This document shows positions 4,480 to 19,791 of a DNA stretch of 23,860 nucleotides, piece after piece. The stretch is from a virus. A program made the position numbers and the translations under genes. The DNA lies in IMG/VR virus record IMGVR_UViG_3300025120_011200, positions 1 to 23,860 of that record, one strand, 5' to 3'. The notes beneath the pieces were generated by a model that was not told where the DNA came from, did not search any database, and was given only the letters and a program-made list of their open reading frames with translations. Each line of letters begins with the position of its first letter. Positions within the stretch are counted from its first letter, which is position 1.

Positions 4480-5444
4480 ATACTTAAATCGTAATATTTT
4501 CTATATAATTTTTTAGATTGTTCACTACATTTATTATAAAATTCTTTATCGTTTTTTAACTTAACAGCTAATATACGAGCTTTTTCTACATCATCCACAG
4601 ATACTGCTAATTCAGGATGACATAATCTCTGGGTGTCAACATCTTTATTTCCAATACAAGGTATACCAAGATAAGCACAATTTAAACTAAATGTGCCCGC
4701 TGCCACAGTTGGCATTAAATGCACAGCGTATTTAAAGGTTGATAATTCATTTATCCAAGCAGCCCAAGATAATCGGCGTAAATGGTTTAAATCTGGTATA
4801 TTACCTTCTAATTTACGTTTGGCATGTGATTCTTGAGCCCATTTTTCACACCCAAATTCATTTGCTACTATATAACTTTGAAATCCACCATACCATCTTG
4901 CAAAATTGCCACCTATAATTACTTTATCTTCTTTAGAAGGACTAATATGTTTAATTAAATCTTCTATTAATAATGTTTTAATTACGTTGACATTTATACT
5001 AGGAAATAATCCTTTATAAAACTTTTTATCTATTTCATTATGAGAAAATATAGTATCACATTTAGATAAAATATTATAAAAGTTAAACTGATCTATAATA
5101 TTATAATCATTAAACCACCAATTAGGACCTTCTTGAATATAATGTATTTTTTTATTGTTTTTCTTTAAAACATCAATAAAATTAGAAGAATATAAGCCTG
5201 ATATTGGGTTTGGTATTTCTGATATTTCGCTCCCTTCAGCACTTAAGTTTAATTTACCTTTAGGCAAAATCAAAAATACATGATCATAATTTTTTACATC
5301 ATTATATAAATTTAAATTTTTATGGTTAGCATTTAATGCATTCATCCAAGCAAATTCGGTACGCATATTAGTATGATTAGAAGGTATTTTACCTTCAAAA
5401 CCCATTTCTGATAAAAATATTATTTTAGATTTTTCAATTCCCAT
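4449..5444 (-). CDS. Putative GT-B-fold glycosyltransferase
   Basis: A 331-residue protein with a GT-B-like layout: an N-terminal half with H-Y-I-Q-E-G-P-N-W-W (101-110) and S-H-N-E (134-137), and a C-terminal half with the donor-site-like G-T-F-S-L-N-C-A-Y-L-G-I-P-C-I-G-N (250-266), followed by a helix-rich tail resembling the end of GT4-type enzymes. The classical E-x7-E motif is absent, so it is a divergent member. Its start overlaps the RmlD-like gene by 25 bases, and its end overlaps the GT2 gene by 31. Given the surrounding genes it most likely adds one sugar of the same glycan. A non-catalytic GT-B relative is possible. Confidence 0.65.
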   Translation of the reverse strand: MGIEKSKIIFLSEMGFEGKIPSNHTNMRTEFAWMNALNANHKNLNLYNDVKNYDHVFLILPKGKLNLSAEGSEISEIPNPISGLYSSNFIDVLKKNNKKIHYIQEGPNWWFNDYNIIDQFNFYNILSKCDTIFSHNEIDKKFYKGLFPSINVNVIKTLLIEDLIKHISPSKEDKVIIGGNFARWYGGFQSYIVANEFGCEKWAQESHAKRKLEGNIPDLNHLRRLSWAAWINELSTFKYAVHLMPTVAAGTFSLNCAYLGIPCIGNKDVDTQRLCHPELAVSVDDVEKARILAVKLKNDKEFYNKCSEQSKKLYRKYYDLSIWKKEMNNIL

Positions 5445-6118
5445 AATTGTTCTTCAATATTTTTTGTTATAATATTGCCTTTTAGAGTTTTATCTTTACC
5501 CAATTCCTTTTTTTGTATAATTATATCTTTTTGATAAATTTCTTTAAACAAATTTAATAATTCGTATTTTGAAACTGTATTTGATTGTAAAATATTAAGT
5601 TTTGGGTAATCATCCCAATTATTTATTAAATTTAAACACCATTTACTCCATTCAAGTGTTGTATTACCATTCCATAATGCTTTAGTATAACCAAATACTT
5701 CGTTTTTTTGGGATAAAAACCATTCTAATAAACTAGCATTAGAATTTATTTCAGGGCCAATTATAGAAGTTTGAATCATCTTAGTTTTAGTACCTTTAGA
5801 TTTAATAAAATCAGCAGCTTTTCTTTTTGAATTACCATAGTCGTCATCATCTATTTCACAATCTGTACTTGGGTGTATGATTTTACAATTAGTATTATTT
5901 TCTAACCATATAGGTATTTCCCAATTTATATGGAATTTATTTGTTTTTTGAGGTATAGACCCAATACAATTAATTATAAAATCAACATTTTTAAACATTA
6001 AAGGATCCCATTTTGGATATCTTTGCTTTATAGTATGAATTTTAAATTTAGAATTAGTTAATACTTTTTTAACCATGTGTCCTAACATACCTCTATGCCC
6101 TAATATTAATATTTTCAT
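5420..6118 (-). CDS. RmlD-like SDR sugar-nucleotide reductase
   Basis: A 232-residue short-chain dehydrogenase/reductase that probably reduces a 4-keto sugar nucleotide with NAD(P)H. It shows the RmlD-type Rossmann loop G-H-R-G-M-L-G at 7-13, S-T-D at 84-86 and the catalytic Y-x3-K at 94/98 (Y-G-N-S-K). It is shorter than RmlD (about 290-300), mostly because the C-terminal substrate domain is reduced. The A-L-W-N-G-N-T-T-L-E segment resembles the WbjC/FnlB/CapF group that acts after WbjB-type dehydratases. The gene right before it is a PseB/WbjB-like dehydratase, and the two overlap by four bases (ATGA), which supports a pair acting on the same intermediate. The exact sugar is unknown. Confidence 0.75.
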   Translation of the reverse strand: MKILILGHRGMLGHMVKKVLTNSKFKIHTIKQRYPKWDPLMFKNVDFIINCIGSIPQKTNKFHINWEIPIWLENNTNCKIIHPSTDCEIDDDDYGNSKRKAADFIKSKGTKTKMIQTSIIGPEINSNASLLEWFLSQKNEVFGYTKALWNGNTTLEWSKWCLNLINNWDDYPKLNILQSNTVSKYELLNLFKEIYQKDIIIQKKELGKDKTLKGNIITKNIEEQLWELKNLK

Positions 6119-7041
6119 GGTTTAAAATAATTATATTTATTTAAAATAATTTTTAATTCTTTTTTAGATAGACATACCTTATCACTTGTGAATTCTTTTT
6201 TATAGTTAGCATCTATTATATCTTTATAATGCATATAAATAGTACCATCTACATTTGGGTGACATCTTGGTGATTCTTCTTTTGATATCATCATTTCGTG
6301 AATTTTTTCAGATATTCTTGGTTTACCTATTTTATATACTAACCCAAATTTTTCTTCAAATATTTCAAATAAATCTTTAACTAAAAATGATTTTAAATCA
6401 GGTATAACATTAAAACCACTAGTATTAAGTCCTTTTTCAATTAAATCCATTGCCTCTTCTATATTAATCATAAAACGAGTCATTTGTTCTGAGTATAAAG
6501 TTAGAGGATATTTTTTATTGATTGAGTCCCAAATTAATGGTATAATACTACCAGTAGAATTAATAACATTACCGTATATTGCGGTAGATAAACGCACGTT
6601 AGAATCTTCAGCATTGACTATGAATGATTCACCTGCTACAAATTTCATCGCGCCATATAATGTAGTTGCTGATCTAGATTTATCTGAAGATATAAAACAA
6701 GCTGCTTCAAAATTATTTTCTTCAGCTGCCCTTCTAGAATTTAAGGCTCCCTCGATAATTACTTTTATTGATTCTTCAACATTTTGGTCAACTGCTCCTA
6801 TTTGTTTTAATGAAGCAGTAAAAATACCAATATCATGACCTTTTGATGATCTTTTTAATAGATCAAAGTTACGAATATCACCTATTACACATTTAATTTT
6901 AGGAAATTGCTGTTTAAGATAATAATGTTTTGCTTCATCTCTAGAATAAATTGTAATTTTATTATCGTTATAATAACGTTTAACTAAATTTTTACCTAAA
7001 AAACCTGCTCCACCAGTTATAAATATTTTTTTATTTTTCAT
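6115..7041 (-). CDS. PseB/WbjB-like NDP-sugar 4,6-dehydratase
   Basis: A 308-residue extended SDR of the inverting UDP-HexNAc 4,6-dehydratase group (PseB, FlaA1, CapE, WbjB), which oxidise C4, remove water from C5/C6 and may epimerise C5. Visible motifs are G-G-A-G-F-L-G (10-16), the family signature S-S-D-K-S at 118-122 in place of the usual S-T-D-K-A, Y-G-A-M-K at 129-133 supplying Tyr and Lys, and M-T-R-F-M-I close to position 190, equivalent to the M-T-R-F-W/F found in PseB. It is translationally coupled to the RmlD-like gene downstream and follows an SDR gene by two bases. UDP-GlcNAc, available in any host, is the likely substrate; that is inference. Confidence 0.8.
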   Translation of the reverse strand: MKNKKIFITGGAGFLGKNLVKRYYNDNKITIYSRDEAKHYYLKQQFPKIKCVIGDIRNFDLLKRSSKGHDIGIFTASLKQIGAVDQNVEESIKVIIEGALNSRRAAEENNFEAACFISSDKSRSATTLYGAMKFVAGESFIVNAEDSNVRLSTAIYGNVINSTGSIIPLIWDSINKKYPLTLYSEQMTRFMINIEEAMDLIEKGLNTSGFNVIPDLKSFLVKDLFEIFEEKFGLVYKIGKPRISEKIHEMMISKEESPRCHPNVDGTIYMHYKDIIDANYKKEFTSDKVCLSKKELKIILNKYNYFKP

Positions 7042-7043
7042 AA

Positions 7044-7802
7044 TTAAATAAAAAGTGTATTATATACATTATTTATTCCTTGTTTTAACCCTATTAGATT
7101 TAAATCATAATTTTTATAATTCCCCATATAAGGACTACCTAATTTTTTATTTTCTATTTTAATCTCACAGTGGTGATTATTTCTTGTATTAACATAATCA
7201 GCAATTTCTTTTAAAGAATAACTTTCTTTATAACAACAATCTATTAATTTAATACTAGGGTTTAATATAATAAAATTTATAATAGTAACCAAATCATCCA
7301 TGTAAATAAAATCAAATAATTTATTTTGATGTATTACTATAGGTTTTCTAGCTTTATAATTATTTAAACATGTTTTAATAAATCTAGTATCTGATTCATT
7401 TTCATCAAATACTCCAAATATTCTAATATTATTTAATTTAGAATGTGAACTAACTATATCCCAAATAATAGATTTACTTAAACCATAAGGATCTGAAGGC
7501 CAATTCAATTCGGCTCCAGAACCAAGATTAATTAATTGTCCAAACTTATGAGTATTAGCCATTAAATTATAAAACATTTTTAAATTATTAGCTAATGTGT
7601 CATTTTCATCTTTCTTTAATCTACTCCCACCACAAATCGCTGTGTGTATTATTACATCAAAATATTTATCCCTAAAAAAATTATTAGTTGATTCTCTATC
7701 TGTTAAATCAAAATCATCTTTGCCTATTCCAATAGTAGAATTAAGTTTAGATATTAAACTACTTCCTATATACCCATTTTTACCTGTAATTAATATTTTC
7801 AT
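7044..7802 (-). CDS. SDR-family sugar-nucleotide reductase/epimerase
   Basis: A 252-residue extended-SDR protein. It has the cofactor loop G-K-N-G-Y-I-G (7-13), D-F-D-L-T-D after the third strand as in GDP-fucose synthase-type enzymes, the serine in L-G-S-G at 93-96, and the catalytic Y-G-L-S-K at 106-110. It is shorter than typical Fcl or RmlD (about 290-320), with a compact C-terminal substrate domain. Its ATG overlaps the stop of the E1-beta-like gene by four bases (ATGA). Immediately after a thiamine-diphosphate enzyme, it sits where the yersiniose pathway has its reductase YerF, so reduction of a ketone formed by branching is one hypothesis. Simple 4-keto reduction is the alternative. 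Confidence 0.75.
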   Translation of the reverse strand: MKILITGKNGYIGSSLISKLNSTIGIGKDDFDLTDRESTNNFFRDKYFDVIIHTAICGGSRLKKDENDTLANNLKMFYNLMANTHKFGQLINLGSGAELNWPSDPYGLSKSIIWDIVSSHSKLNNIRIFGVFDENESDTRFIKTCLNNYKARKPIVIHQNKLFDFIYMDDLVTIINFIILNPSIKLIDCCYKESYSLKEIADYVNTRNNHHCEIKIENKKLGSPYMGNYKNYDLNLIGLKQGINNVYNTLFI

Positions 7803-8335
7803 TTTGTTTTACAATAATCAGCAAATTCAACTAATATAGTATTAACATTATCTTTTCTATTTAATGCCTTAGTATAAGAAGGTAGTATATCTTCTGGTTC
7901 TATTAATTCTATAATTTCGGTATTCGTAGTCATATTTCGAAACGCTTCAGCAAAATTACCTTTATGTTGACATTGTGGGTCAACAGGTTGTTCACTACCT
8001 ACTGCTACTCTAATTATAACTTTAGGTGTTAATTTTCCATTAGACATACTTTTAAATTTATCTAGATGATTTACTATTTGGTCAGTACCCATTAATAAAA
8101 AATTCCACCTTGGATAAGTTGAAACCGGTATTAAACCTTCTATAGCCATACCATTTGCTAAACCAGATTGTAAGTACTCAGCAACAGGTAATTCCATTCT
8201 TTTATCTTCTGGGAGATGAGATAATGAATCGTACAACCCAGTTCCTTCATATTCAACTGCTTGACCTATAAAAATTGTTTTAGGGTGATTAGCTAACATA
8301 CTCATTGCTTTTACTATTTCTTCAGTATACTTCAT
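7799..8335 (-). CDS. E1-beta-like subunit (Pyr domain) of a thiamine-diphosphate enzyme
   Basis: A 178-residue protein matching the pyrimidine-binding domain of two-subunit 2-oxo-acid dehydrogenase E1-beta chains. E-L-P-V-A-E at 48-53 places Glu53 where the thiamine-activating glutamate sits. A-N-G-M-A-I-E-G-L-I-P-V (60-71) and F-L-L-M-G-T-D-Q-I-V-N-H (79-90), then K-F-K-S-M-S-N-G, align well with E1-beta of pyruvate and acetoin dehydrogenases. The usual C-terminal transketolase_C domain (about 140 residues) is absent: the stop is followed by a coupled SDR gene, not by a remnant. With the partner at 8343-8969 this makes a minimal Pyr + PP enzyme. No E2/E3 genes or lipoyl domains are nearby, so an oxidative dehydrogenase role is unlikely; carboligation or decarboxylation in sugar synthesis is inferred. 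Confidence 0.85.
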   Translation of the reverse strand: MKYTEEIVKAMSMLANHPKTIFIGQAVEYEGTGLYDSLSHLPEDKRMELPVAEYLQSGLANGMAIEGLIPVSTYPRWNFLLMGTDQIVNHLDKFKSMSNGKLTPKVIIRVAVGSEQPVDPQCQHKGNFAEAFRNMTTNTEIIELIEPEDILPSYTKALNRKDNVNTILVEFADYCKTK

Positions 8336-8342
8336 ATTTTTA

Positions 8343-8969
8343 TTAAAATTGTACTCTTATACCCGCTCCAGCATGTGGATATTTAGTATTATCATATTGA
8401 TAATATATTAAATTCTTTTGTTTTACAATTCCACCTTTATATTCTGATTCTAGATAATATGGTGTATCCCTTTTCCAAATATCGGGTGTAGGTGTACATA
8501 CTGATTTTTTATTATCTTCTACAATAAAAGTAATAGGTAAGTTATGATTTAATGAATATTTATATGCCTCATGGAAATGTCCAGTTTCAGCACTCATATC
8601 ACCTACCCAACACCAAACTTTATTTAATTTTTTCTGGAGTTTAATAGCTAAGGCTATACCTGAAGCTATTGATGGTATACCACCTACTATAGAACTACAT
8701 ATAAATTTATATTCAGGAAGATTAGCTACCATAGATTTACCATCTCTAATATTAGATTCCATAATATCCTGAGGTATGCCTTTTAATAGACCTTGATAAT
8801 GATTTCTCCAAGTACAACATACCCAATCATTTTTAATATCTATATTTTTAAATAATTCTATCATTATATCCTCATTACTATGATATAAATGAATAGGTGC
8901 TTTTATTTCTCCATTATTAAAAGCATCTCCAATTTTAGTTTCAAAGTTTATTAATTCTTCTTTTACCAT
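8343..8969 (-). CDS. E1-alpha-like subunit (PP domain) of a thiamine-diphosphate enzyme
   Basis: A 208-residue protein corresponding to the diphosphate-binding domain of E1-alpha/transketolase-type enzymes. R-N-H-Y-Q-G-L-L-K-G at 55-64 matches the E1-alpha R-x-H-x3-L-x-x-G region. G-D-M at 123-125 and D-N at 152-153 fall at the exact spacing of the GDG-x26-NN thiamine motif, with F-H-E-A and L-P-I-T-F-I-V-E between them as in E1-alpha. The third Gly is Met and the first Asn is Asp, so metal coordination would use Asp124 and Asp152: an unusual but feasible site. It is much shorter than dehydrogenase E1-alpha (about 320-380). Its start overlaps the RmlB-like gene by seven bases; the beta-like gene follows seven bases on. 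Confidence 0.85.
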   Translation of the reverse strand: MVKEELINFETKIGDAFNNGEIKAPIHLYHSNEDIMIELFKNIDIKNDWVCCTWRNHYQGLLKGIPQDIMESNIRDGKSMVANLPEYKFICSSIVGGIPSIASGIALAIKLQKKLNKVWCWVGDMSAETGHFHEAYKYSLNHNLPITFIVEDNKKSVCTPTPDIWKRDTPYYLESEYKGGIVKQKNLIYYQYDNTKYPHAGAGIRVQF

Positions 8970-9949
8970 ATAAAATTTGTTTTATAATAATCAATTATAT
9001 TAGATAATTCATTATCAAACACCATTTTAGGTTTCCAACCTAATAATCTTAATTTACTATCATTTAAAGCATATCTAACATCTTGACCTTGTCTTGAGTA
9101 ATTTAAATCTAAATAATCACTAAAATCTTCACCTATTATTTCTCCAGGGGAAAGATATATATTAACATCTTTACCCATTGTTCTAATTAATTTACTTACA
9201 GTATCCCAATTACTTTGTTCAAATCCCCCACAAATATTATATATTTCATTTTTAACTCCACTTTCAATAATAGTTAATACAGCATTGGCAGTATCTTGGG
9301 CATGTAGCCAATTACGAATAGGATCACCATTATTATGTAGTGGTATTTTTTTACCTAAACCTAAATATTTAATGGCTTTTGGTATTAATTTTTCGGTATA
9401 TTGTCCTACCCCATAATTATTTGTTGGTCTTAATATAACATAAGGTATATTATATGTTCTACCCCAAGCTGTAATTAATTGATCAGCTGCTGCTTTTGTT
9501 GCTGAATATGGGTTTGAGGGTTTTAAAATATCTGTTTCAATATGTTCTCCTTCTGTAATATCACCATAAACCTCATCTGTAGAGAAATGTAATAATATAG
9601 GTAATTTATCTGTTTCTGCTCTGTAATTTCTAATTAATTCTAATAAATTATGTACTCCATTAATATTTGAATGAACAAAATTTTCACTTTTAACTATAGA
9701 ATTACCTACGTGGGTTTCAGCTGCCGTGTTAATAATATAATCACATTCATAAAGAAATTCTATATCATTTATATCAGTTTCTTCAAAAATAAAATTAGGA
9801 TATTCTAAAAATTCATCTAATAAATTTGGGTTTGAAGCATAAGTCATTACATCAATTCCTCTTACATACCATCCTTTCTTTAAACATTCTCTTGTTACAT
9901 AAGAACCTATAAATCCTAAACAACCAGTTATATAAACTATTTTACCCAT
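8963..9949 (-). CDS. rmlB: RmlB-like NDP-glucose 4,6-dehydratase
   Basis: A 328-residue extended SDR converting an NDP-hexose, in RmlB dTDP-glucose, to the 4-keto-6-deoxy sugar. It shows G-C-L-G-F-I-G (9-15), the RmlB-type catalytic S-T-D-E-V-Y-G (123-129, Asp125/Glu126), Y-S-A-T-K at 148-152, and N-N-Y-G-V-G-Q-Y followed by K-L-I-P-K-A-I and R-N-W-L-H, all characteristic of RmlB. Full length is normal. There is no RmlA, RmlC or RmlD partner in the expected order. Instead it lies between a histidine-type DegT 3-dehydratase and a thiamine enzyme, overlapping both genes by 7-8 bases. The nucleotide could be dTDP or another; RmlB and CDP-glucose dehydratases are related, but this one matches RmlB better. 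Confidence 0.85.
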   Translation of the reverse strand: MGKIVYITGCLGFIGSYVTRECLKKGWYVRGIDVMTYASNPNLLDEFLEYPNFIFEETDINDIEFLYECDYIINTAAETHVGNSIVKSENFVHSNINGVHNLLELIRNYRAETDKLPILLHFSTDEVYGDITEGEHIETDILKPSNPYSATKAAADQLITAWGRTYNIPYVILRPTNNYGVGQYTEKLIPKAIKYLGLGKKIPLHNNGDPIRNWLHAQDTANAVLTIIESGVKNEIYNICGGFEQSNWDTVSKLIRTMGKDVNIYLSPGEIIGEDFSDYLDLNYSRQGQDVRYALNDSKLRLLGWKPKMVFDNELSNIIDYYKTNFIW

Positions 9950-11096
9950 AATTATTAATTATTGATGTTATTTGATTAATTTCATCCTCTGTTAAATCTT
10001 GATGGTTTGGGATATAAAATCCTATTTTATTTACTAATTCACAATTAGGTAATGATGGAATATCATTTTCATTATACCACATAGGTTTAGTAGCCATATT
10101 ACCTGCTATTAAAGGTCTAACTTCTATATTATTATTTTGTAACTCTTGGGCTATCTCATTCCTATTTGTATTTAATATAGGAATAGCAAAACTGGAAACA
10201 AAATCATTTTCATTTTCCTTTAATTTTAAAATATTATTTTTTATTTTACGTCTATAATGGTGGAAATTAACTCTACGTTTATAAGAATATTCATCTAATT
10301 TATCTATTGCTCTTAAACCAATAAAAGCTTGTAAATCAGTTGATCTAACATTTAACCCAGGTACATAGAAATTATATAATGAATCAAAATCATTACTATT
10401 AAATTCTTTTCTTAATTTAGTTTGAGCATCTTTAGGTAAATCTCTATCCCAACCATGACTTCTCATCATTAAAAGTAAATGATATAACTCTTCATCATCT
10501 GTGTTTATAAATCCTCCTTCTATAGTAGATAAATGGTGACCAAAGTACATTGAATAAAATGAAGCTAAACCAAAACTACCTAAATATTTATTTTGATTTT
10601 TAGATCCCATACTTTCACAAACATCTTCAAGTAGTGTTACATTATATTGTTCACACAATAAAACTATTTCTTCCATATTTGGAACTAATCCAAGTGGTGA
10701 TACTAATATAAAAGTTGAAGGGTCGTGTTTTTGAAATAATTGTTCTAAGTGTTTTAAATCACAAGATAAATCTTCTAAATTACAATCACACATATAAGTT
10801 TCATATCCTAACAACATAGGTGAACTTACATCTGTTGACCAACTTAATCCTGGGACTATAATTTTATTATTTCTTGATTTACTATGATATTTTAGGGCTG
10901 CTAAAGTTAATAATATTGAAGATGATCCTGAATTTACAAATATAGAATATTTAGTGCCAATTTTAGTAGCCCATTTTTGTTCTAATTCTAATGTTAAAGG
11001 ACCCTTAGTTAATCTTGGTATTTCATCTTGTGATAACCAGTTTACTAAAGCATTAATATCATTTTTATCAATTGTATCACTAACTAATTTTATCAT
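9942..11096 (-). CDS. ColD-like PLP-dependent sugar 3-dehydratase (DegT family, Lys replaced by His)
   Basis: A 384-residue DegT/DnrJ/EryC1/StrS protein. Substrate entry region T-K-G-P, phosphate loop N-S-G-S-S-S (55-60) and the cofactor Asp in L-L-E-D (155-158) are intact, but the position of the PLP-binding lysine reads F-G-H-H-L-S-T-I-E-G-G (185-195), with His187 at the Lys position. This histidine is the hallmark of GDP-4-keto-6-deoxymannose 3-dehydratase (ColD) and RfbH-type 3-dehydratases, which remove the C3 hydroxyl rather than transaminate. The following T-D-D-E-E-L-Y-H and R-S-H-G-W-D-R-D-L-P, and V-R-P-L-I-A-G-N near the C terminus, also resemble ColD. It overlaps Fcl-like (17 bases) and RmlB-like (8 bases) genes. 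Calling it an aminotransferase would be wrong on this evidence. Confidence 0.82.
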   Translation of the reverse strand: MIKLVSDTIDKNDINALVNWLSQDEIPRLTKGPLTLELEQKWATKIGTKYSIFVNSGSSSILLTLAALKYHSKSRNNKIIVPGLSWSTDVSSPMLLGYETYMCDCNLEDLSCDLKHLEQLFQKHDPSTFILVSPLGLVPNMEEIVLLCEQYNVTLLEDVCESMGSKNQNKYLGSFGLASFYSMYFGHHLSTIEGGFINTDDEELYHLLLMMRSHGWDRDLPKDAQTKLRKEFNSNDFDSLYNFYVPGLNVRSTDLQAFIGLRAIDKLDEYSYKRRVNFHHYRRKIKNNILKLKENENDFVSSFAIPILNTNRNEIAQELQNNNIEVRPLIAGNMATKPMWYNENDIPSLPNCELVNKIGFYIPNHQDLTEDEINQITSIINNYG

Positions 11097-11970
11097 AAAC
11101 TTGTTTTAATCCTTCTTTTAAACCTGTAAATTTAAAAAGTGGAAATATTTTTAATAACTTGTTATTACTAACGTCTTTTCTAAATTGACCATCTAAATCC
11201 GGTCTATCATAGATAATTTCATAATCTTTTTCTGTAACTTCTAAAGCAATTTTAGCCATTTCATCTATAGAATAATTAAAATTAGGTGATACATTAAAAT
11301 TTTCAGTAATATCATTATCAATAACTAATTTAATAATGGCTGCTAAATCTCCTGCATACATAAATTGTCTTAATGGTTTACCTGTACCTAATAAATGTAA
11401 TGTTTTATCTTTACTATTCCTAATTTTATTTAATAAAGCTGTTATAAAATGCATTTTGCTTTCATCATGCATATTATCATAATCTCCATATAAATTACAT
11501 GGAATTAAATAATTATATTTAGTCCCAAATTGTTTATTATAAGCATCAATTTGAACGGCTAAACAACGTTTAGCATAACCATAACTAAAATTAGAAGGAG
11601 GTGGTGGTCCTATAAATAAATCTTCTTCCTTCATAGGATAATTATCAACTACACTAGGATAAATGCAAGTGCTTAAAATACCAATAAATCTTTTTATATT
11701 ATATTCTTTACATACTTTAACTATATTAGTATTGATTAAAATGTTATCATCAAAATAATCAGCAGGGTATTTTAAATTATCTTGTATACCTCCTACACGG
11801 GCAGCTAAATGTATAACTACATCAGGTGTATAAGATGAAATCATCCATTTTACTTTGTTTATATCTGTTAGATCACAATCTTTGCTACTTAAGTATATAG
11901 CATTAGGTAAAATTTCTTGTAGATGTTTACCTACTAAGCCTGTACCACCTGTTACTAATATTTTACTCAT
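11080..11970 (-). CDS. fcl: GDP-L-fucose synthase / GDP-L-colitose synthase-like epimerase-reductase
   Basis: A 296-residue SDR that epimerises and then reduces a GDP-4-keto-6-deoxy sugar with NADPH. It carries G-G-T-G-L-V-G (8-14), the Fcl signature A-A-R-V-G-G-I (56-62), L-S-T-C-I-Y-P (99-105) with Cys102 at the position of the catalytic cysteine, Y-G-Y-A-K (130-134), and a histidine in K-M-H-F-I-T-A-L-L matching the second epimerisation residue. Length is close to the usual 310-320. ColC, which makes GDP-colitose, is a homologue that cannot be told apart by eye. Its neighbours are two 3-dehydratase-type enzymes and, one gene upstream, Gmd, so either GDP-L-fucose or a 3-deoxy analogue is possible. 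Overlaps its neighbours by 8-17 bases. Confidence 0.85.
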   Translation of the reverse strand: MSKILVTGGTGLVGKHLQEILPNAIYLSSKDCDLTDINKVKWMISSYTPDVVIHLAARVGGIQDNLKYPADYFDDNILINTNIVKVCKEYNIKRFIGILSTCIYPSVVDNYPMKEEDLFIGPPPPSNFSYGYAKRCLAVQIDAYNKQFGTKYNYLIPCNLYGDYDNMHDESKMHFITALLNKIRNSKDKTLHLLGTGKPLRQFMYAGDLAAIIKLVIDNDITENFNVSPNFNYSIDEMAKIALEVTEKDYEIIYDRPDLDGQFRKDVSNNKLLKIFPLFKFTGLKEGLKQVYDKIS

Positions 11971-13108
11971 ATTTAAAAAATTGTTTTATTTTATCACAAA
12001 CATAATCTACATCTTCTAGATCCATACCATGATGTGCTCCTAATAAAAATCCATCTTTCATTACTTTATCAGCATTTTTAAAATCCTGTAGATATTCTCT
12101 ATAAATGGGGTGTCTTGTAACATTTCCAGCAAATGTAACTCTAGTTTGTATGTTGTTATCTTCTAAATAATTAAGTAATTCTAATCTACGTTCAGTTTGT
12201 AAAGGGATAGCTAACCAATTAGGTTTAATGCTATCATCTGGGAGTAATATTTCTTTAACATCCTTAAGATTTTTTAAATAGCGTTCAACATTATCTCTCC
12301 GTTTTTGTTTAAAAGTTTGAAATCGTTCTAATTGGACTAAACCAAAAGCTGCACTCATTTCACTACATTTCATATTATAACCTAATACACCATATAAAAA
12401 TTTATAATCATAAGGTAAACCATCAACATCATGAGCAAATCGTTCATCCATATTTTCACTATTGTCCCCAATTCTACCCCAATCTCTATATTGTAAAGCC
12501 TTTTTAACATGTTTTTTATCATTGAACATTACCATTCCACCCATACCACCAGCTGTAATTACGTGTGAAGCATAAAAACTAGTAGTAGAAACATCTGATT
12601 CTTCGGTGTATGTAACGGTATCAGCTGAGTCCTCAATAATGTAAATATCTTGTCTATTCATTATTTCTAAACCTGCTCTAAGTAATGACCAATCTGGTTT
12701 ATTACCAATTAAATTAGGTACCATAATGGCTTTAGTATCTTTTGTTATGACATCTAAAATATCTTCTACAGTTGGAACATAAGATGTTAAATTTGAATCT
12801 ATAAAAATGGGTTTAAATCCTAACTGTATGATGGGAGCTAAGGTTGTAGAAAATGTTAGAGCGGGTGTTATAATTTTACTTCCCTTAGGTAAATCTAATG
12901 CAGCTAAAGCTAATAAACAAGCAGATGATCCAGAGTTAACAAACACTCCATATTTTTTTCCAAATTCTTTAGCAATTTTTTCTTCAAATTCAATAGAACG
13001 AGGGCCAAAACCAGCTAACCAACCATCTCTAAGACATTGTTCAACTGCTTCAATTTCTTTTTCACCATAAGCCTCTAATTTATTGGGGGCATACCATATT
13101 TTTTTCAT
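11963..13108 (-). CDS. RfbH-like PLP-dependent sugar 3-dehydratase (DegT family, Lys replaced by His, no Fe-S cysteines)
   Basis: A 381-residue DegT-family protein with N-S-G-S-S-A at 58-63, the cofactor Asp in I-I-E-D-S-A-D (Asp160), and S-F-Y-A-S-H-V-I-T-A-G-G (177-188) at the lysine motif, so His182 replaces the Schiff-base lysine. Downstream, R-D-W-G-R, F-L-Y-G-V-L-G-Y-N-M-K, R-R-D-N-V-E-R and Q-T-R-V-T-F-A-G-N-V-T-R-H-P follow RfbH (CDP-4-keto-6-deoxyglucose 3-dehydrase) more closely than ColD. However, the cysteine cluster that holds the [2Fe-2S] centre right after R-D-W-G-R in RfbH is missing; only four scattered cysteines exist. It probably deoxygenates C3 by a ColD-like, iron-independent route. 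Position between Gmd (nine bases away) and the Fcl-like gene suggests a GDP-sugar substrate. Confidence 0.82.
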   Translation of the reverse strand: MKKIWYAPNKLEAYGEKEIEAVEQCLRDGWLAGFGPRSIEFEEKIAKEFGKKYGVFVNSGSSACLLALAALDLPKGSKIITPALTFSTTLAPIIQLGFKPIFIDSNLTSYVPTVEDILDVITKDTKAIMVPNLIGNKPDWSLLRAGLEIMNRQDIYIIEDSADTVTYTEESDVSTTSFYASHVITAGGMGGMVMFNDKKHVKKALQYRDWGRIGDNSENMDERFAHDVDGLPYDYKFLYGVLGYNMKCSEMSAAFGLVQLERFQTFKQKRRDNVERYLKNLKDVKEILLPDDSIKPNWLAIPLQTERRLELLNYLEDNNIQTRVTFAGNVTRHPIYREYLQDFKNADKVMKDGFLLGAHHGMDLEDVDYVCDKIKQFFKYE

Positions 13109-13117
13109 AATTTAATT

Positions 13118-14101
13118 TTATTTTAGTTCGTAAACATCTTTAGTATCCCAGTATTCAATCATATCATCTAATAAAGATACGAAATTATGCTTAGGTTTCC
13201 AACCTAATTTTCTTAATTTTGTTGAATCTCCTTTTAAATCATGTAATTCTTCTGCTCTATAATATTTTGGGTCTATCGTAACATAATCCTTATAATTTAA
13301 ATTTAATTTATTAAAAACATACTCACATAATTCTCTAACACTATGCGATTCACCAGTAGAACAAACATAATCTCCAGGTTTATCTTGTTGTAACATTAAC
13401 CACATTGCTTCAACATAATCTTTAGCATGCCCCCAATCTCTAGTAGAATCTAAATTACCTAATGCTAATTTATCTTTTAAACCTTTACTAATCTGAACTG
13501 CTGTTTTTACTACTTTATTAGTTACAAAATTAGTGCCTCGTCTTGGAGATTCATGGTTAAATAGTATACCATTTGATATAAACATACCATAAGAATTTCT
13601 ATAATTTCTACATATATTATACGAGAATACTTTAGCACAACCATAAGGCGATACAGGATGTAAAGGTGTTGTTTCCCTTTGGTATCCATCGCTATCTATT
13701 GAATTACCAAACATTTCCGATGATGATGCTTGGTATATTTTAGCTTTTGGGTTTGTTAACTTAACTGCTTCTAATAATTTAAGTGTACCAATTCCCGTAG
13801 TTTGAGCAGTATAAATAGGTTGATCAAAACTAATTCTAACATGAGATTGTGCTGCTAAATTATATATTTCATTAGGTTTACATAATTGTATTACTCTAAT
13901 AAGTGATGATAAATCGTTTAAATCTGCATATTCTAAATTAATTTTTTTAAATATATTATTATTAATTCTAGATGTTTGGTTTTCAGCTACAGAATTTCTT
14001 TTTACTGTACCCCAAACTTTATAACCTTTATCTAATAATAGTTCAGCTAAATAAGACCCATCTTGCCCATTAATCCCTGTTATTAAAGCAACTTTATTCA
14101 T
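13118..14101 (-). CDS. gmd: GDP-mannose 4,6-dehydratase
   Basis: Converts GDP-D-mannose to GDP-4-keto-6-deoxy-D-mannose, the precursor of GDP-fucose, colitose, rhamnose and perosamine. The 327-residue protein has G-I-N-G-Q-D-G-S-Y-L (9-18), diagnostic of Gmd; N-L-A-A-Q-S-H-V (81-88); catalytic S-S-E-M-F-G (127-132), Y-G-C-A-K (153-157); and N-H-E-S-P-R-R-G, N-L-D-S-T-R-D-W-G-H-A-K-D-Y and R-P/A-E-E-L type segments typical of the family. Length is slightly below bacterial Gmd (about 345-370). It is the first of the sugar-nucleotide genes after the glycosyltransferase run, overlapping the upstream gene by four bases. GDP-mannose must come from the host because no ManC/ManB is present here. Confidence 0.92.
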   Translation of the reverse strand: MNKVALITGINGQDGSYLAELLLDKGYKVWGTVKRNSVAENQTSRINNNIFKKINLEYADLNDLSSLIRVIQLCKPNEIYNLAAQSHVRISFDQPIYTAQTTGIGTLKLLEAVKLTNPKAKIYQASSSEMFGNSIDSDGYQRETTPLHPVSPYGCAKVFSYNICRNYRNSYGMFISNGILFNHESPRRGTNFVTNKVVKTAVQISKGLKDKLALGNLDSTRDWGHAKDYVEAMWLMLQQDKPGDYVCSTGESHSVRELCEYVFNKLNLNYKDYVTIDPKYYRAEELHDLKGDSTKLRKLGWKPKHNFVSLLDDMIEYWDTKDVYELK

Positions 14102-14953: not shown

Positions 14954-16582
14954 TTAAATTAATTTATTTAAGTATTTATTAAACATTCTATCATTATCCA
15001 TCCATATATTTTGGGCTATATTATAGTTTTCTTTTATAGCCTCTATATTATTATTATAAAACTCATAATCAAGATTATTTAGTATATCTATTAATTCTTT
15101 TTTATTATTAAAACTTATAATTCCTTTAGGGTTAAAGTATTTTTCTATATTAGAACAACCATAATATATAGGAATTGTACCTGATAGAAAACAATCAATT
15201 ATTTTTTCTGTAAAATAAAAGGGTAATTGTTCATTTTCCATAGCTATACTATAATAATAATTTTTTAGCCCCTCTAATTTTGAAGAAATAGGATTAATAC
15301 CCCTTCCAAAAATATCAACATCTAATTCTAAATTTTTTACTTCATTAACACATTCCAATCTTAATTGATGCCCAGGACATATATTTTTATTACTAGATAT
15401 AAAAGAAATTTGTTTTGTTTTATTATAAATTTTAAACTTATTAATATCTAACTTTTCAGGTAAAAGATTCCATTGTGAAATTTCAGTAAGAGGAAAGAAT
15501 TCAAAATTAGGTAACAAATGTAAACTTTCATGCCATCCTAGAATTTTAGTAAATTTATGGTGATTTTGAATAACTTTTTCATATACTTCTTTTTGATTAA
15601 ATAAGTGCGGTCCTTCAGCTACTAAAGCTACTATGGGGTGTGAATTATTTGTAAGAATTTCTTTATTTAAATAATCTATAATAGAATTATCTTGTAGAAA
15701 AGATAAATCATATTCTCCTTGGTTTAAATTATAAACATAAGAAAATTGGGTTGGGACTGTATGTCTTTCTTTAATATCACCAAAAACATTTACTTGTGGT
15801 AACTTTTTAGGTATATCATTAATATTTTTTAATTTTTGGTATACTTTCCTATTTCTAATCTCTAATTCAAATTTATGATTATTTTTATTACTTTCTCTAT
15901 TTACTGTACGTTCCTTAACCTCAGGGGTAGTGTTATAAGCATAACTGTAAAAATCTAGTACTCCAATTTTATCTTTACCACACATTTCTAAGCAAGGATA
16001 AGTTAAAGCTAAATCTGCAGCATGGTCAAAATAAGAATTATTGATATTAGATTTAAATTCAGATAAATCTATTTTTCTTAATAAAGAGCCTTTAAATGTT
16101 CTTAAATGAGATGCTCTCCAATGATCTTTTCTATAGAGACCATATTCATGTACAAAATCAGGATAATGGGTGTTTTGTGGGGAAGGAATATGAGTATTTT
16201 CTCCATCCCAATCAATATACTTACCATAAGTCATCCAAACATTATTATCATTATAATAATTATTTAGATTTTCTAAAACTTTATCATCATAAAGCCAGTC
16301 ATCAGCACTCATACAGATTAAAATTTCATTATCTTTAATTTGTTTTATACATTCTTCATAGCTAAATAAAGCTTGCATATTTTTTTCTCTAGTGGTAACA
16401 ATAAATTTCTTATTATTTTTTACTATTTCTTTTACTGTTTTATATGTATTGTCTTTAGAAGCATCATCATAAAATAAAACTTTATAATTGCTATAAGTTT
16501 GGTTTAAAATACTAGCTATATTGTATTTTACCCACTTTTCATCATTATAAGCAGTAATTAAAATTACAAAATTATTTTTCAT
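14954..16582 (-). CDS. Two-domain glycosyltransferase: GT2 + GT10 (fucosyltransferase-type)
   Basis: A 542-residue protein. Residues 1 to about 230 are a GT2 domain: F-V-I-L-I-T-A-Y-N-D-E (5-15), F-Y-D-D-A-S-K-D-N-T (37-46) and I-C-M-S-A-D-D at 89-95 as the DxD equivalent. From about 300 on it is GT10-like: D-V-D-I-F-G-R-G (421-428), Y-Y-S-I-A-M-E-N-E (443-451) and the diagnostic F-Y-F-T-E-K-I-I-D-C-F-L-S-G-T-I-P-I-Y-Y-G (455-475), matching the alpha-1,3-fucosyltransferase motif Y-x-T-E-K...G-x-P-I/V-x-x-G. GT10 enzymes use GDP-fucose or close relatives, and Gmd and Fcl-like genes are in the same operon, so the donor is probably made here. The fusion suggests two successive transfers. GT2 donor unknown. 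Confidence 0.85.
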   Translation of the reverse strand: MKNNFVILITAYNDEKWVKYNIASILNQTYSNYKVLFYDDASKDNTYKTVKEIVKNNKKFIVTTREKNMQALFSYEECIKQIKDNEILICMSADDWLYDDKVLENLNNYYNDNNVWMTYGKYIDWDGENTHIPSPQNTHYPDFVHEYGLYRKDHWRASHLRTFKGSLLRKIDLSEFKSNINNSYFDHAADLALTYPCLEMCGKDKIGVLDFYSYAYNTTPEVKERTVNRESNKNNHKFELEIRNRKVYQKLKNINDIPKKLPQVNVFGDIKERHTVPTQFSYVYNLNQGEYDLSFLQDNSIIDYLNKEILTNNSHPIVALVAEGPHLFNQKEVYEKVIQNHHKFTKILGWHESLHLLPNFEFFPLTEISQWNLLPEKLDINKFKIYNKTKQISFISSNKNICPGHQLRLECVNEVKNLELDVDIFGRGINPISSKLEGLKNYYYSIAMENEQLPFYFTEKIIDCFLSGTIPIYYGCSNIEKYFNPKGIISFNNKKELIDILNNLDYEFYNNNIEAIKENYNIAQNIWMDNDRMFNKYLNKLI

Positions 16583-17202
16583 AAAGTATTATAATAATTG
16601 TTTTGTTTTTCTTGGCGTTTAATATCTTTAGGATGATATAAAGCTAATCCTTCCATATCAGGTAATGTAGCATATGTTTTATGTCCACTTAATTTCTCAT
16701 GTACTTTATTTACCCATTTGATTTCTGGTTTGTTTTTCCAAACTCTCCATTGATAATCAGGCCAATTTACCCAACCTTTATCATTAACATTCCATCCCCA
16801 TTTTTGTATATGTTCATTAGTTAATCCTTTAACTGTATTTACTCTAGGAATTAAATATACTTCATTTTCAGGATTAGCCTCTAATATAACTGGTAATTGT
16901 GATATTAAACTATCATGTGGGTATTCATCTGCATCAATTTGAAATATATAATCACCACTACATAATTTTGTTAGTTGATTTTTCCAATTAGCAAAATGGC
17001 CTTTAAATTCTCCTTTATGCCAGCTAAATTCAGCATTTACTGATTTTGCTCTTAGGAATTGTTCAACTGATTCACTACCATTTTTAGAGTCATATAATAT
17101 TATAACTTCATCTTCATATCTTTTATATTTTAAAAGAATTGATATAAGTTTTTGTATTTCTACAAATTCATTACATACAGTTATAGCGTAACTTATTTTC
17201 AT
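16579..17202 (-). CDS. Small family 2 glycosyltransferase
   Basis: A 207-residue GT2 protein of the short WaaE/KdtX-like type. It opens I-S-Y-A-I-T-V-C-N-E (3-12), has E-V-I-I-L-Y-D-S-K-N-G-S near 32-43, and the metal site Y-I-F-Q-I-D-A-D-E (85-93, Asp90 and Asp92). The second half contains W-R-V-W-K-N and W-V-N-K-V-H-E, a pattern seen in WaaE-like proteins, where the conserved K-V-H-E follows the acceptor loop. Four-base overlaps with both neighbours (16579-16582 and 17199-17202) tie it into the operon. It probably transfers one hexose or heptose in the cytoplasm. Substrates are not deducible. Confidence 0.83.
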   Translation of the reverse strand: MKISYAITVCNEFVEIQKLISILLKYKRYEDEVIILYDSKNGSESVEQFLRAKSVNAEFSWHKGEFKGHFANWKNQLTKLCSGDYIFQIDADEYPHDSLISQLPVILEANPENEVYLIPRVNTVKGLTNEHIQKWGWNVNDKGWVNWPDYQWRVWKNKPEIKWVNKVHEKLSGHKTYATLPDMEGLALYHPKDIKRQEKQNNYYNTL

Positions 17203-18053
17203 TTATCTAAATTTAATATATAATCTTTTAATTTATCACTTGGTTTCCACCCTAATCTTTTTAAACTATCATTATTTTCTCTTAATGTTTTTTTATAATT
17301 ACCTGATTGATCAAGTAGAGATTTTGCTTCAATATGTGGGTACCTATCAAGAAACATTTCGTAAACTTCGTTAATCGAGTAATTTATACCAGTTCCTAAT
17401 TCCCAGGCATCTTCATGTTTCTTATCTTTCATTCCGATCCTCCATAAAGCATCACAAATATCGTCTACATGAGTGAAGTCTCTTCTTTGTTCTCCATCCC
17501 CTACTATTGTAATTTTTTGTCCATCTCTAACTTGTCTTCTCCAAATACCTATTACTGCTGCCCAATCTCCATCTACTATTTCACCAGGACCATAAACATT
17601 ATAAAATCTAGTTATTTCAATATCCATTCCATAGGTTTTTTTATACATTTTACATACTTCTTCTCCCATGTGTTTACATGCCGCATAAGGAGATTGGTAT
17701 GGGTTATGCCATCTAGAAGATGAACCCGCATATATAACTTTAGTTCCATTTAATCTAGCAAACTCACAAACCCTTTGTGTTCCAATAGTATTAACTCTAA
17801 ATGTTTCACTAGGATTATTAAATGAGGGTTGTATTCTAGATAAAGCTGCTAAATGGAATATTAAATCATAATTATAACCTATACTACCTATATTAGTAAT
17901 ATCATTACGATGATAAATACAACCCTTATGTTCATTTTTTTTTACCCCAATTTCATAATTATCTAAAGAATGGACATTATGTCCTTCTTTTAATAATTTT
18001 TTGATTAAAGCTGTTCCAATAAATCCAACTCCACCTGTAACTAATACTCTCAT
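17199..18053 (-). CDS. NAD-dependent NDP-sugar epimerase/dehydratase (GalE/WbpP-like SDR)
   Basis: A 284-residue extended SDR with G-G-V-G-F-I-G (7-13), D-N-Y at 31-33 preferring NAD, F-H-L-A-A-L-S-R-I-Q-P-S (66-77), S-S-S at 111-113 and Y-A-A-C-K at 123-127. R-F-Y-N-V-Y-G-P-G, G-D-G-E-Q-R-R-D-F-T-H-V-D-D and a final R-L-G-W-K-P are typical of UDP-glucose 4-epimerase, WbpP and UDP-glucuronate decarboxylase relatives. The serine-rich S-S-R-W-H-N in place of S-S-A/S-V-Y-G is a deviation. An NDP-hexose 4-epimerase is the best guess; a 4,6-dehydratase or decarboxylase is less likely. It begins directly after the stop of the 18054-18497 gene and overlaps the next gene by four bases. Confidence 0.8.
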   Translation of the reverse strand: MRVLVTGGVGFIGTALIKKLLKEGHNVHSLDNYEIGVKKNEHKGCIYHRNDITNIGSIGYNYDLIFHLAALSRIQPSFNNPSETFRVNTIGTQRVCEFARLNGTKVIYAGSSSRWHNPYQSPYAACKHMGEEVCKMYKKTYGMDIEITRFYNVYGPGEIVDGDWAAVIGIWRRQVRDGQKITIVGDGEQRRDFTHVDDICDALWRIGMKDKKHEDAWELGTGINYSINEVYEMFLDRYPHIEAKSLLDQSGNYKKTLRENNDSLKRLGWKPSDKLKDYILNLDK

Positions 18054-18497
18054 TTATTCTGGTAAGACCCCAATATACGAAAGTGCATCTATATAGTCAC
18101 GTTCTTTAAATAATTCCATTGTAGACATATCCATTTTATGTGTTTGTCCTTCTACTTTTGCATCTTCACCTTCTTTTAAAGGTATAGCTTTAACGGCAGC
18201 CCAATTCCATTCTTCAGCATTAGGACCACTAGCAAATACCATTCCTTTATCCTGAATATTGATAGTATTTGGAATCCAAATTAATTTTGTTTTGGGATCT
18301 TCCCAAGATATATCTTTGTATATTTCAGGTAAGGTACTAACTTGCTCATTGTAAAATTCTGAGTCTTTTTTCATTAAAGTATTAGTCCAAAACCCACAAG
18401 ATAAACTAAGAAAATTAGTAATGTCTTTATTTATTTCTGTTTTATAACATAAATCACCACCGGATTTAGGACAATTTATTATTTCATCATGTTTCAT
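18054..18497 (-). CDS. Conserved phage hypothetical protein (147 aa)
   Basis: A soluble 147-residue protein with an N-terminal C-P-K-S-G-G-D-L-C-Y (9-18) and a later L-S-C-G-F-W-T-N (32-39), then D-K-G-M-V-F-A-S-G-P-N-A-E-E-W-N-W-A-A-V-K-A close to residues 83-104. I recall similarly built proteins (N-terminal C-P-K-C, D-K-G-M-V-F and W-x-W-x-A-V-K-A) in marine T4-like phages, where they have no known function, but I cannot check this. It is not a sugar enzyme on any visible motif. It sits in the operon with no gap to the epimerase gene and one base from the upstream GT4 gene. The cysteines might once have formed a zinc site, but the pairs are irregular. Confidence 0.7.
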   Translation of the reverse strand: MKHDEIINCPKSGGDLCYKTEINKDITNFLSLSCGFWTNTLMKKDSEFYNEQVSTLPEIYKDISWEDPKTKLIWIPNTINIQDKGMVFASGPNAEEWNWAAVKAIPLKEGEDAKVEGQTHKMDMSTMELFKERDYIDALSYIGVLPE

Positions 18498-18498
18498 A

Positions 18499-19791
18499 TT
18501 AAACTTTGTTTAATTTTGGTAATTGTAATTTAGGTAGAGATAATTCTACTTGTTTTGGAAATTCAGGTACATTTTTTTCTAAACTATTTTTAACTAATTC
18601 TTTCATTTTATCCCAACTAAAATTATTTTGGGCATAATATTTTTGTTTTTTAGAATTTTTAGAATATTGTTTATATTTTTTAAATACTTCTTTCATTGCA
18701 CTTATTCCCTGTTGAGAATTTACTTGAAACCATTGTGCTTCTTTTATCAACCAATCATTAGCAGCAGAAGGGTGTACATTTTCTAATTTTCCACCTAATA
18801 AAACATTACTATTTTTATCTAAAAAATCCATATGACCAGACCATCCTGATGCAATAATAGGTTTTCCTGTTGTTGAAAATTCTAATAAAGGTCTTCCATA
18901 TCCTTCTCCTTTAGTAAATGAGACCATCCCTTTTACTTTTGGATGATTATATAATTCATTTACTTCTGAGTCATCAAATTCCCCATTTAGTAGATAAACA
19001 TTAGGTAAATTATTTCCTCCTACTTCTTTTCTTATACCTTTAATTCTATCTAAAATAACATCTCTACTAACATAAGAAGATACCCCAGTTGAGGATTTTA
19101 ATATTAAAGCAGGTTTTTCTCCTCTTTTATTTTTAAAAGCTTCATAAAAAGATTTAACTAAAACCCCTACATTCTTTCTATCATGACCATAGGTTCCATT
19201 CATCCAATGACCAACAAATAAATAACAAAATTGCTCTTTAATATCAGATAAATCTATAGTTTTAATTTCAGAAAATTTAACGGGTTTATAAGTAGTTAAA
19301 TCAACACCTTCAAATATTACTTCTATTGGTTTTTCTAATTTAACTTGTTTTACTATTTGTCCTGTTCTTTGATCTTGTTGATCATAAGTCATTCTTTGGA
19401 AAGTTTCTTTTGCAAAATTTGAGGAAACCCAATTCATATTCATTCGATTTAACCCCTCAATCCATTCTGCTTTACACGCTGTAGCTTCAATACCCGCTGT
19501 TAAGCCAATATTATATTTTCCTATAGGTTGAAATTCATTAGGAATAGTTATTTGCATCCATAATTCAGGTTGAACTTTTTGCCAATCAGATGTTGCTTTA
19601 TGATTATTTAAAAAATTCCATTCTGGGTGGTCTTCACAAAAACCCCATGATGTTTCTCCCCATCTTTGGGGAAGTAATTCTACTTTATATTTATCTAATT
19701 CAATTATAGATTTAACTATATCTCTTGATCTTGCACCATAACCTGAGTAGGTATCAAAGGGGCAACTAATTACAAAACGTGGCTTACTCAT
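18499..19791 (-). CDS. GT4 (group 1) glycosyltransferase
   Basis: A 430-residue GT-B-fold retaining glycosyltransferase. The C-terminal donor domain shows L-F-V-G-H-W (191-196), K-S-S-T-G (232-236), V-Y-L-L-N-G-E-F-D-D-S-E-V (265-277) and the E-x7-E motif in K-G-E-G-Y-G-R-P-L-L-E-F (294-305; Glu296 and Glu304), followed by G-K-P-I-I-A-S-G-W-S-G. The N-terminal domain begins F-V-I-S-C-P-F-D-T-Y-S-G-Y-G-A (6-20), the usual acceptor-side glycine loop. The last 40 residues are proline- and lysine-rich (P-K-L-Q-L-P-K-L). It shares one base with the end of the other GT4 gene. Donor unknown; the final glycan could be on the virion, on host lipid, or on phage DNA. Confidence 0.9.
   Translation of the reverse strand: MSKPRFVISCPFDTYSGYGARSRDIVKSIIELDKYKVELLPQRWGETSWGFCEDHPEWNFLNNHKATSDWQKVQPELWMQITIPNEFQPIGKYNIGLTAGIEATACKAEWIEGLNRMNMNWVSSNFAKETFQRMTYDQQDQRTGQIVKQVKLEKPIEVIFEGVDLTTYKPVKFSEIKTIDLSDIKEQFCYLFVGHWMNGTYGHDRKNVGVLVKSFYEAFKNKRGEKPALILKSSTGVSSYVSRDVILDRIKGIRKEVGGNNLPNVYLLNGEFDDSEVNELYNHPKVKGMVSFTKGEGYGRPLLEFSTTGKPIIASGWSGHMDFLDKNSNVLLGGKLENVHPSAANDWLIKEAQWFQVNSQQGISAMKEVFKKYKQYSKNSKKQKYYAQNNFSWDKMKELVKNSLEKNVPEFPKQVELSLPKLQLPKLNKV

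Follow-up and report, generated by a model that had tools for sequence, protein, structure and literature searches.

Sugars with a carbon branch are known to occur in a few types of lipopolysaccharide (LPS) and in antibiotics, and branching by YerE is known in LPS. Whether a phage can also encode such a branching step, and with which enzyme, is the question raised by two short genes in a viral sequence of 23,860 nucleotides (IMG/VR record IMGVR_UViG_3300025120_011200, positions 1 to 23,860; hereafter the window). The pair, at 7799-8969, encodes E1-alpha-like and E1-beta-like subunits of a putative thiamine diphosphate (ThDP) enzyme. With a probability that we put at about 0.73, the two subunits form a minimal ThDP carboligase, which would link an activated acyl group to a nucleotide-bound keto-deoxyhexose at its ketone and so yield a carbon-branched building block of a phage-directed glycan.

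All recognisable genes of the window lie on the minus strand. A preliminary description of this DNA had grouped five of them (7044-11096) as a coupled unit, and this unit is real: the five are minus-strand open reading frames, neighbours overlapping or standing a few bases apart, with the family matches given here and, for the E1 subunits, folds modelled by AlphaFold.

7044-7802, minus: extended short-chain dehydrogenase/reductase (SDR; reductase or epimerase), Epimerase family 7.7e-18, GxxGxxG and YxxxK motifs; downstream border of the ThDP slot
7799-8335, minus: E1-beta-like ThDP subunit, 178 amino acids, Pyr domain only, PRK09212 E=1.4e-13
8343-8969, minus: E1-alpha-like ThDP subunit, 208 amino acids, PP domain, Pfam E1_dh 5.5e-13
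8963-9949, minus: RmlB-like nucleoside diphosphate (NDP)-hexose 4,6-dehydratase, TIGR01181 296 bits, TDE/YSATK motifs; upstream border of the slot
9942-11096, minus: ColD-like 3-dehydratase candidate (DegT family), phmmer ColD 1.1e-57, His at the lysine position

The modelled E1-alpha and E1-beta (predicted local distance difference test, pLDDT, 89.7 and 86.5) matched the alpha and beta folds of PDH and BCKDH E1, the former aligning with human PDH E1-alpha (E=6.6e-10) and the latter with the E1-beta chain 1um9_B (E=9.9e-11). The profile match of E1-beta to Transket_pyr was weak (E=1.4e-5, just under the curated cut-off), and a profile search detected no Transketolase_C domain (PF02780) in the pair or anywhere in the 23.9 kb record. 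The pair matches E1_dh and Transket_pyr, not the TPP_enzyme_N and TPP_enzyme_M domains expected of a YerE-type single-chain decarboxylase. Judged by alignment with true PDH and Aco E1 pairs, it retains the predicted ThDP ligands and catalytic residues: R55, H57, G123-D124 and N153 of the alpha subunit and the catalytic Glu53 and His124 of the beta subunit are invariant across the window's phage clade. Arg76 and His90 of the beta subunit are invariant in the whole short family, the corresponding positions in PDH and Aco being Phe or Leu and mostly Gln.

The slot between rmlB and the reductase gene

The surroundings of the pair were surveyed with RmlB, independent of E1, as anchor. The 80 best matches for each of two related RmlB queries gave 98 distinct loci, 92 of them with at least 1.5 kb downstream, and slot contents were assigned by blast of the fetched loci. 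A ThDP enzyme lay between rmlB and the SDR gene in 89 of the 92. With slot classes defined from these same loci, the contents were a split transketolase pair (31), an acetolactate synthase (ALS)-like enzyme (25), an E1 pair (16), a YerE/JanthE-like enzyme (14), ALS plus E1 (3) or none (3); 54 intervals had been unassigned under a smaller reference set, and reading them revealed pairs of split transketolase genes and genes that stand before ALS. The arrangement is directional, a ThDP enzyme being found within 3.5 kb downstream of rmlB in 83/85 loci and upstream in 0/88.

Sister phages carry a YerE/JanthE-like enzyme in exactly the slot that the pair occupies, with flanking RmlB, DegT classes and SDR the same as in the window. 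One such enzyme (locus L385) scored 550 bits against JanthE 8RPH, and its start overlaps the rmlB stop just as the window's E1-alpha start does. The JanthE paper (PMC12188165) mentions the structure code 8RPH, and JanthE accepts ketones (PMC12188165, PMC12247030). At least 36 changes of slot label are counted on the tree of RmlB, E1 rows being as scattered as in shuffles; the window RmlB is nearest to that of a YerE-slot phage (90% identity) and the window SDR is also closest to SDRs of YerE-slot phages. Because the slot is conserved, changes type so often and is bordered in the window by genes closest to those of YerE-slot phages, the E1 pair most likely takes the part of YerE, that of a keto-deoxysugar carboligase. 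Genes, motifs, folds, slot conservation and frequent swapping are all direct observations. The yersiniose-like logic put forward in the preliminary description, with a two-subunit E1 in the place of YerE, is strengthened by the YerE/JanthE-like enzymes of the sister phages; its choice of partner gene, its claim of newness and the specificity that it gave to the SDR fared less well, as discussed below.

The swapping of slot enzymes provides genetic evidence for a shared reaction step among enzymes never assayed. The ThDP classes for which branching of keto sugars has been reported or proposed are the YerE-like, alpha-KADH2 and split transketolase enzymes (PMC12247030, PMC4425429); for the making of such tertiary alcohols they are the three superfamilies DC, TK and alpha-KADH2 (PMC12247030). 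It appears that phages carry complete pathways for branching and that, at a single position of the operon, the enzyme forming the branch is exchanged for others from unrelated ThDP superfamilies; this suggests a natural mix-and-match system for unusual surface sugars. For tertiary alcohol synthesis, the slot also offers many carboligases that are candidates for accepting ketones.

Genes that could supply donors differ among the slot classes. Relatives of 4-hydroxy-2-oxovalerate aldolase and acylating acetaldehyde dehydrogenase were present in 14/14 YerE loci, representatives exceeding the NCBIfam cut-offs. The donor reported for ErwE is of the hydroxy-2-oxo acid type (PMC12247030); the two genes would be expected at YerE loci if the donor there is of this type, and they likely form a 2-oxo-acid donor supply. 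No donor-supply genes were seen among loci carrying the E1 pair alone, which would fit pyruvate as donor.

We also noted that several ALS-like loci (L477, L513, L556, L580 and L603) have distinctive neighbours, namely PanB (tested in L477 and over the cut-off) and, by eye only, NeuB-like, dehydroquinate-synthase-like and aldolase-like genes; it is possible that these supply unusual 2-oxo-acid donors to the ALS-like enzymes. In a rare locus without a ThDP enzyme (L535:6909-8021), the slot reads by eye as RmlC plus an RmlD-like reductase, which would fit an RmlB making deoxythymidine diphosphate (dTDP)-4-keto-6-deoxyglucose.

On balance we favour the view that the fixed operon frame of this phage group (3-dehydratase, RmlB, slot, SDR) exchanges carboligases of three ThDP superfamilies, together with donor-supply genes, as whole modules; this would be a natural combinatorial branched-sugar system, with a minimal phage-specific E1-type sugar carboligase without C-terminal domain among its parts, and the exchange may alter phage or host surface glycans as antigenic variation does. 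It provides a testable route by which phages possibly vary surface sugars during infection. We found no paper on phage-encoded sugar branching in the open-licence literature, a weak negative; within the reach of our searches, two things are new, namely that a phage carries a minimal pair of this kind in such an operon and that three ThDP superfamilies replace one another at one slot.

Relatives of the pair and its probable 3-dehydratase partner

On the tree, short pairs and fused proteins group together, split from PDH and Aco E1 on a strongly supported branch. Group I, which holds the window, consists of phage pairs with RmlB and SDR. Group II consists of bacterial pairs (Nitrospirota, Verrucomicrobiota, Pelagibacteraceae, SAR86, Betaproteobacteria and others) accompanied by ColD-like DegT, fcl-like, HddA/HddC-like and B12-radical-SAM genes, and group III of fused cyanophage-type proteins adjoining Zn-alcohol dehydrogenase and sugar kinase genes. 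Among 84,980 prokaryote genomes scanned, relatives of the phage pair were only about 46-53% identical, and within the sensitivity of that scan group I looks virus-specific. Three phages (L093, L014 and L130) each combine a group I module with one of group II, the latter having an E1 pair of its own.

A search for the five-gene neighbourhood bore out its coherence: the 133 viral loci fetched with the pair were always nucleotide-sugar clusters, with RmlB in 126 and a window-type SDR in 125, a conservation far beyond chance. Thirteen loci had no DegT nearby, but when the whole contig was searched 11 of these had one further off, the remaining two being a 10.5 kb fragment and a 22.7 kb contig. In a larger set, a DegT was present in 41/41 group I contigs versus 16/42 contigs of the fused group III (Fisher 9.5e-11).

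His-type DegT enzymes take the C3 hydroxyl off 4-keto-6-deoxy sugars. The preliminary description had named the ColD-like gene adjoining rmlB as the partner and overlooked a second His-type DegT gene, as well as Fcl-like and Gmd genes, directly upstream (11080-14101):

11080-11970, minus: GDP-fucose-synthase-like (Fcl/ColC-like) SDR of the guanosine diphosphate (GDP) module, phmmer GDP-L-fucose synthase 2.5e-56
11963-13108, minus: His-type DegT of RfbH ancestry without Fe-S cysteines, phmmer RfbH-type dehydrase 3.8e-56, motif SFYASHVITAGG
13118-14101, minus: GDP-mannose 4,6-dehydratase (Gmd), TIGR01472 401 bits, cut-off 415

In both DegT proteins the pyridoxal phosphate (PLP) lysine is replaced by His, at 9942-11096 in the motif YFGHHLST and at 11963-13108 as in RfbH; the latter lacks, unlike RfbH, the four [2Fe-2S] cysteines, and the former is placed with ColD by phmmer. 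Three DegT types occur in these phages: RfbH-like with all four Fe-S cysteines (47/47), Fe-S-less (11/11, the window's 11963-13108 among them) and ColD-like. ColD-like genes stand with fcl/gmd in 10/10 other phage loci, while the sugar-gene neighbour of an RfbH-like or Fe-S-less DegT, when recognised, is usually rmlB, E1-alpha or SDR. Two relatives (L365 and L366), many of whose genes are 92-97% identical to those of the window, hold fcl-ColD-gmd, including a 97% identical copy of the ColD-like gene, without E1, RmlB or the 7044-type SDR. Because ColD-like genes go with fcl/gmd and these relatives keep that module E1-free, 11963-13108 appears to be the likelier 3-dehydratase partner of the slot, and the adjacent ColD-like gene the less likely one. 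Two modules are probably interleaved in the window, the ColD-like gene belonging to a colitose-type GDP module. No RfbI-type reductase gene was recognised near the phage RfbH-like DegTs with four Fe-S cysteines (e.g. L082:4982-6292).

Beyond the phages, the 73 neighbourhood DegTs of bacterial loci are all His-type, and almost all lie no more than 4 kb from the pair; Lys-type enzymes were seen only further out. A conserved bacterial operon (L143, L155, L206, L213 and others) comprises B12-radical-SAM, HddA-like kinase, fcl-like SDR, short E1 pair, ColD-like DegT, HddC-like nucleotidyltransferase and SDR genes, followed in Nitrospira by an ABC-2 permease; it possibly encodes a branched heptose pathway, and a first impression of the bacterial relatives as cytidine diphosphate (CDP)-dideoxy clusters was dropped, the loci being these HddA/HddC/B12-radical-SAM operons. 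The fused alpha-beta form (phrog_34187; L216-L295, S-SM2, P-TIM68) adjoins Zn-alcohol dehydrogenase (51/57) and sugar kinase (51/57) genes in loci that also hold GmhA and nucleotidyltransferase genes, and by this gene content is assigned to a separate heptose-like pathway. These cyanophage 'transketolase central region' proteins resemble the pair in their homologous PP and Pyr domains and in having no C-terminal domain, but differ in being one fused chain with Zn-alcohol dehydrogenase/sugar kinase flanks, a heptose-like context and mostly no DegT; the pair offers a lead on this unannotated phage family. The Gly after the GD-motif Asp is Met in groups I and II, and the ThDP Asp is Glu in 17/34 group II rows. 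Two Streptomyces plasmid E1 matches were inspected, and neither is inside a sugar cluster.

Proposed pathway and competing explanations

In the pathway that we propose, the RmlB-like enzyme, whose nearest solved relatives are dTDP-glucose 4,6-dehydratases, would form an NDP-4-keto-6-deoxyhexose, probably dTDP-linked, from which the Fe-S-less RfbH relative (11963-13108) would remove the 3-hydroxyl. The E1 pair, most likely with pyruvate, would then place an acetyl branch at C4 of the NDP-4-keto-3,6-dideoxyhexose, and the SDR would reduce the branched product. Donor, acceptor (including its nucleotide), regiochemistry, product and glycan target are what we infer from the genes. The pair would be one of four interchangeable slot enzymes (E1 pair, split transketolase, YerE-like, ALS-like), each class probably making a different branch. 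The SDR follows the slot in 82/89 loci and is common to all four ThDP classes, which does not support the specificity for this branch that had been supposed; because it does not track ThDP class, its probable target is a feature that all slot products share.

Two-subunit E1-type sugar branching is not in itself new, contrary to the preliminary description, being known in actinomycetes from AviB1/B2, Pau11/12 and KbDH (PMC12247030, PMC4425429), the last of which couples pyruvate with ketones in vitro (PMC12247030). These alpha-KADH2 enzymes, together with the aldgarose enzyme, resemble the window pair in having two PDH-E1-like subunits in deoxysugar clusters, the E1-alpha and E1-beta homologues being separate chains that bear ThDP-binding residues. 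Compared by published description, their subunits are longer (Pau11, 325 amino acids; Pau12, 345; PMC4425429) and belong to actinomycete antibiotic clusters, whereas the window's subunits of 208 and 178 amino acids lack the C-terminal domain, are phage-borne and lie beside 3-dehydratases. The yersiniose A pathway (YerE, ErwE, JanthE) shares with the window a 4,6-dehydratase, a His-type 3-dehydratase (to which two His-type DegT genes correspond in the window), a ThDP carboligase and, putatively, a reductase, the SDR that follows the slot being a candidate counterpart of YerF that does not track ThDP class; it differs in that the window's ThDP enzyme is of another superfamily and has two subunits, in its nucleotide (CDP, against probably dTDP or GDP) and in an E3 reductase gene not seen in the window. 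The miharamycin/amipurimycin split transketolase is likewise a ThDP enzyme encoded by two genes, for which the branching of a keto sugar has been proposed, and a short split transketolase shares the phage slot; its ThDP family is not that of the window's pair.

Several observations weigh against the proposed pathway. The nucleotide is in doubt: the RmlB-like protein, in which the TDE and YxxxK catalytic motifs are present, scores below the TIGR01181 cut-off of 365, RfbH relatives act on CDP sugars, and ColD and Gmd are GDP enzymes. In the window's clade the GDG motif of ThDP enzymes is changed to GDM, and SDR relationships do not follow ThDP class. The DegTs inspected are His-type in groups I and III alike, which weakens the idea that a His-type DegT proves a link to the pair; since the fused-type contigs have the same residue where a DegT is present, it is not diagnostic alone, and the argument rests on DegT presence together with slot position. 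Finally, the contexts of groups II (HddA/HddC-like) and III (kinase, GmhA, Zn-alcohol dehydrogenase, mostly no DegT) are heptose-type, so that a tie to 3-deoxy-hexoses does not hold for the entire family.

The last point invites the explanation that the pair extends a sugar chain earlier, in a transketolase- or DXS-like reaction on a free sugar phosphate (for example a heptulose or 1-deoxyketose) and not on a nucleotide sugar. Distant relatives beside heptose kinase, GmhA and nucleotidyltransferase genes speak for it, as does the split transketolase at the same slot, but we consider it improbable: the clade's gene is locked between the 4,6-dehydratase and the SDR with no sugar-phosphate kinases or isomerases adjoining, and the slot also hosts YerE-like enzymes, the known relatives of which act on keto-deoxysugars (PMC12247030). 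A little less doubtful, though still unlikely, is the same carboligase acting on the ColD-like product (GDP-4-keto-3,6-dideoxymannose), or on a 3-ketone as in aldgarose. C3 branching does occur among alpha-KADH2 products (PMC12247030), and in the window the ColD-like gene adjoins rmlB; against the GDP-linked acceptor stand the fcl and gmd company of that gene elsewhere, the E1-free relatives that hold the same module, and the high-scoring RfbH-like or Fe-S-less DegT found in 41/41 E1 contigs.

PDH and BCKDH E1 are the closest curated families and folds, and the pair could on that ground be an ordinary metabolic auxiliary gene, a 2-oxo-acid dehydrogenase E1 supplying acyl-CoA or lipoyl groups. 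We regard this as very improbable. No genes for E2/E3 or a lipoyl protein were found near the pair in the window, in contrast to true E1 operons fetched for comparison; since E2/E3 genes do not stand beside it and the C-terminal domain is missing, the pair does not look like part of a dehydrogenase complex. Its context is always a nucleotide-sugar cluster, and the strongly supported branch of the tree separates it from PDH and Aco E1.

The surrounding cassette

Outside the modules described, the window resembles Flavobacterium phage vB_FspM_immuto, with counterparts of the flanking glycosyltransferase, PD-(D/E)XK nuclease, DnaK-suppressor-like and HNH genes at corresponding places.

16579-21230, minus: upstream conserved shell (GT2, SDR, small protein, two glycosyltransferases), immuto counterparts with 39-60% identity
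2308-4479, minus: downstream conserved shell (glycosyltransferase, DnaK-suppressor-like, HNH), immuto counterparts on the same side with 43-45% identity

Gene order in the upstream shell matches that of immuto, the SDR excepted. Because of these counterparts, the window is classified, by gene content, as the hypervariable sugar (glycan) cassette of an Immutovirus-like flavophage. Immuto's own cassette holds a Lys-type DegT and no E1, and a search of 25 shell-anchored contigs, which carried no positive control, found no E1. After the module, at 5420-7041, the window has a PseB/FnlA-like SDR and a small protein; both are kept in the E1-free relative L365 and are therefore probably part of another pathway.

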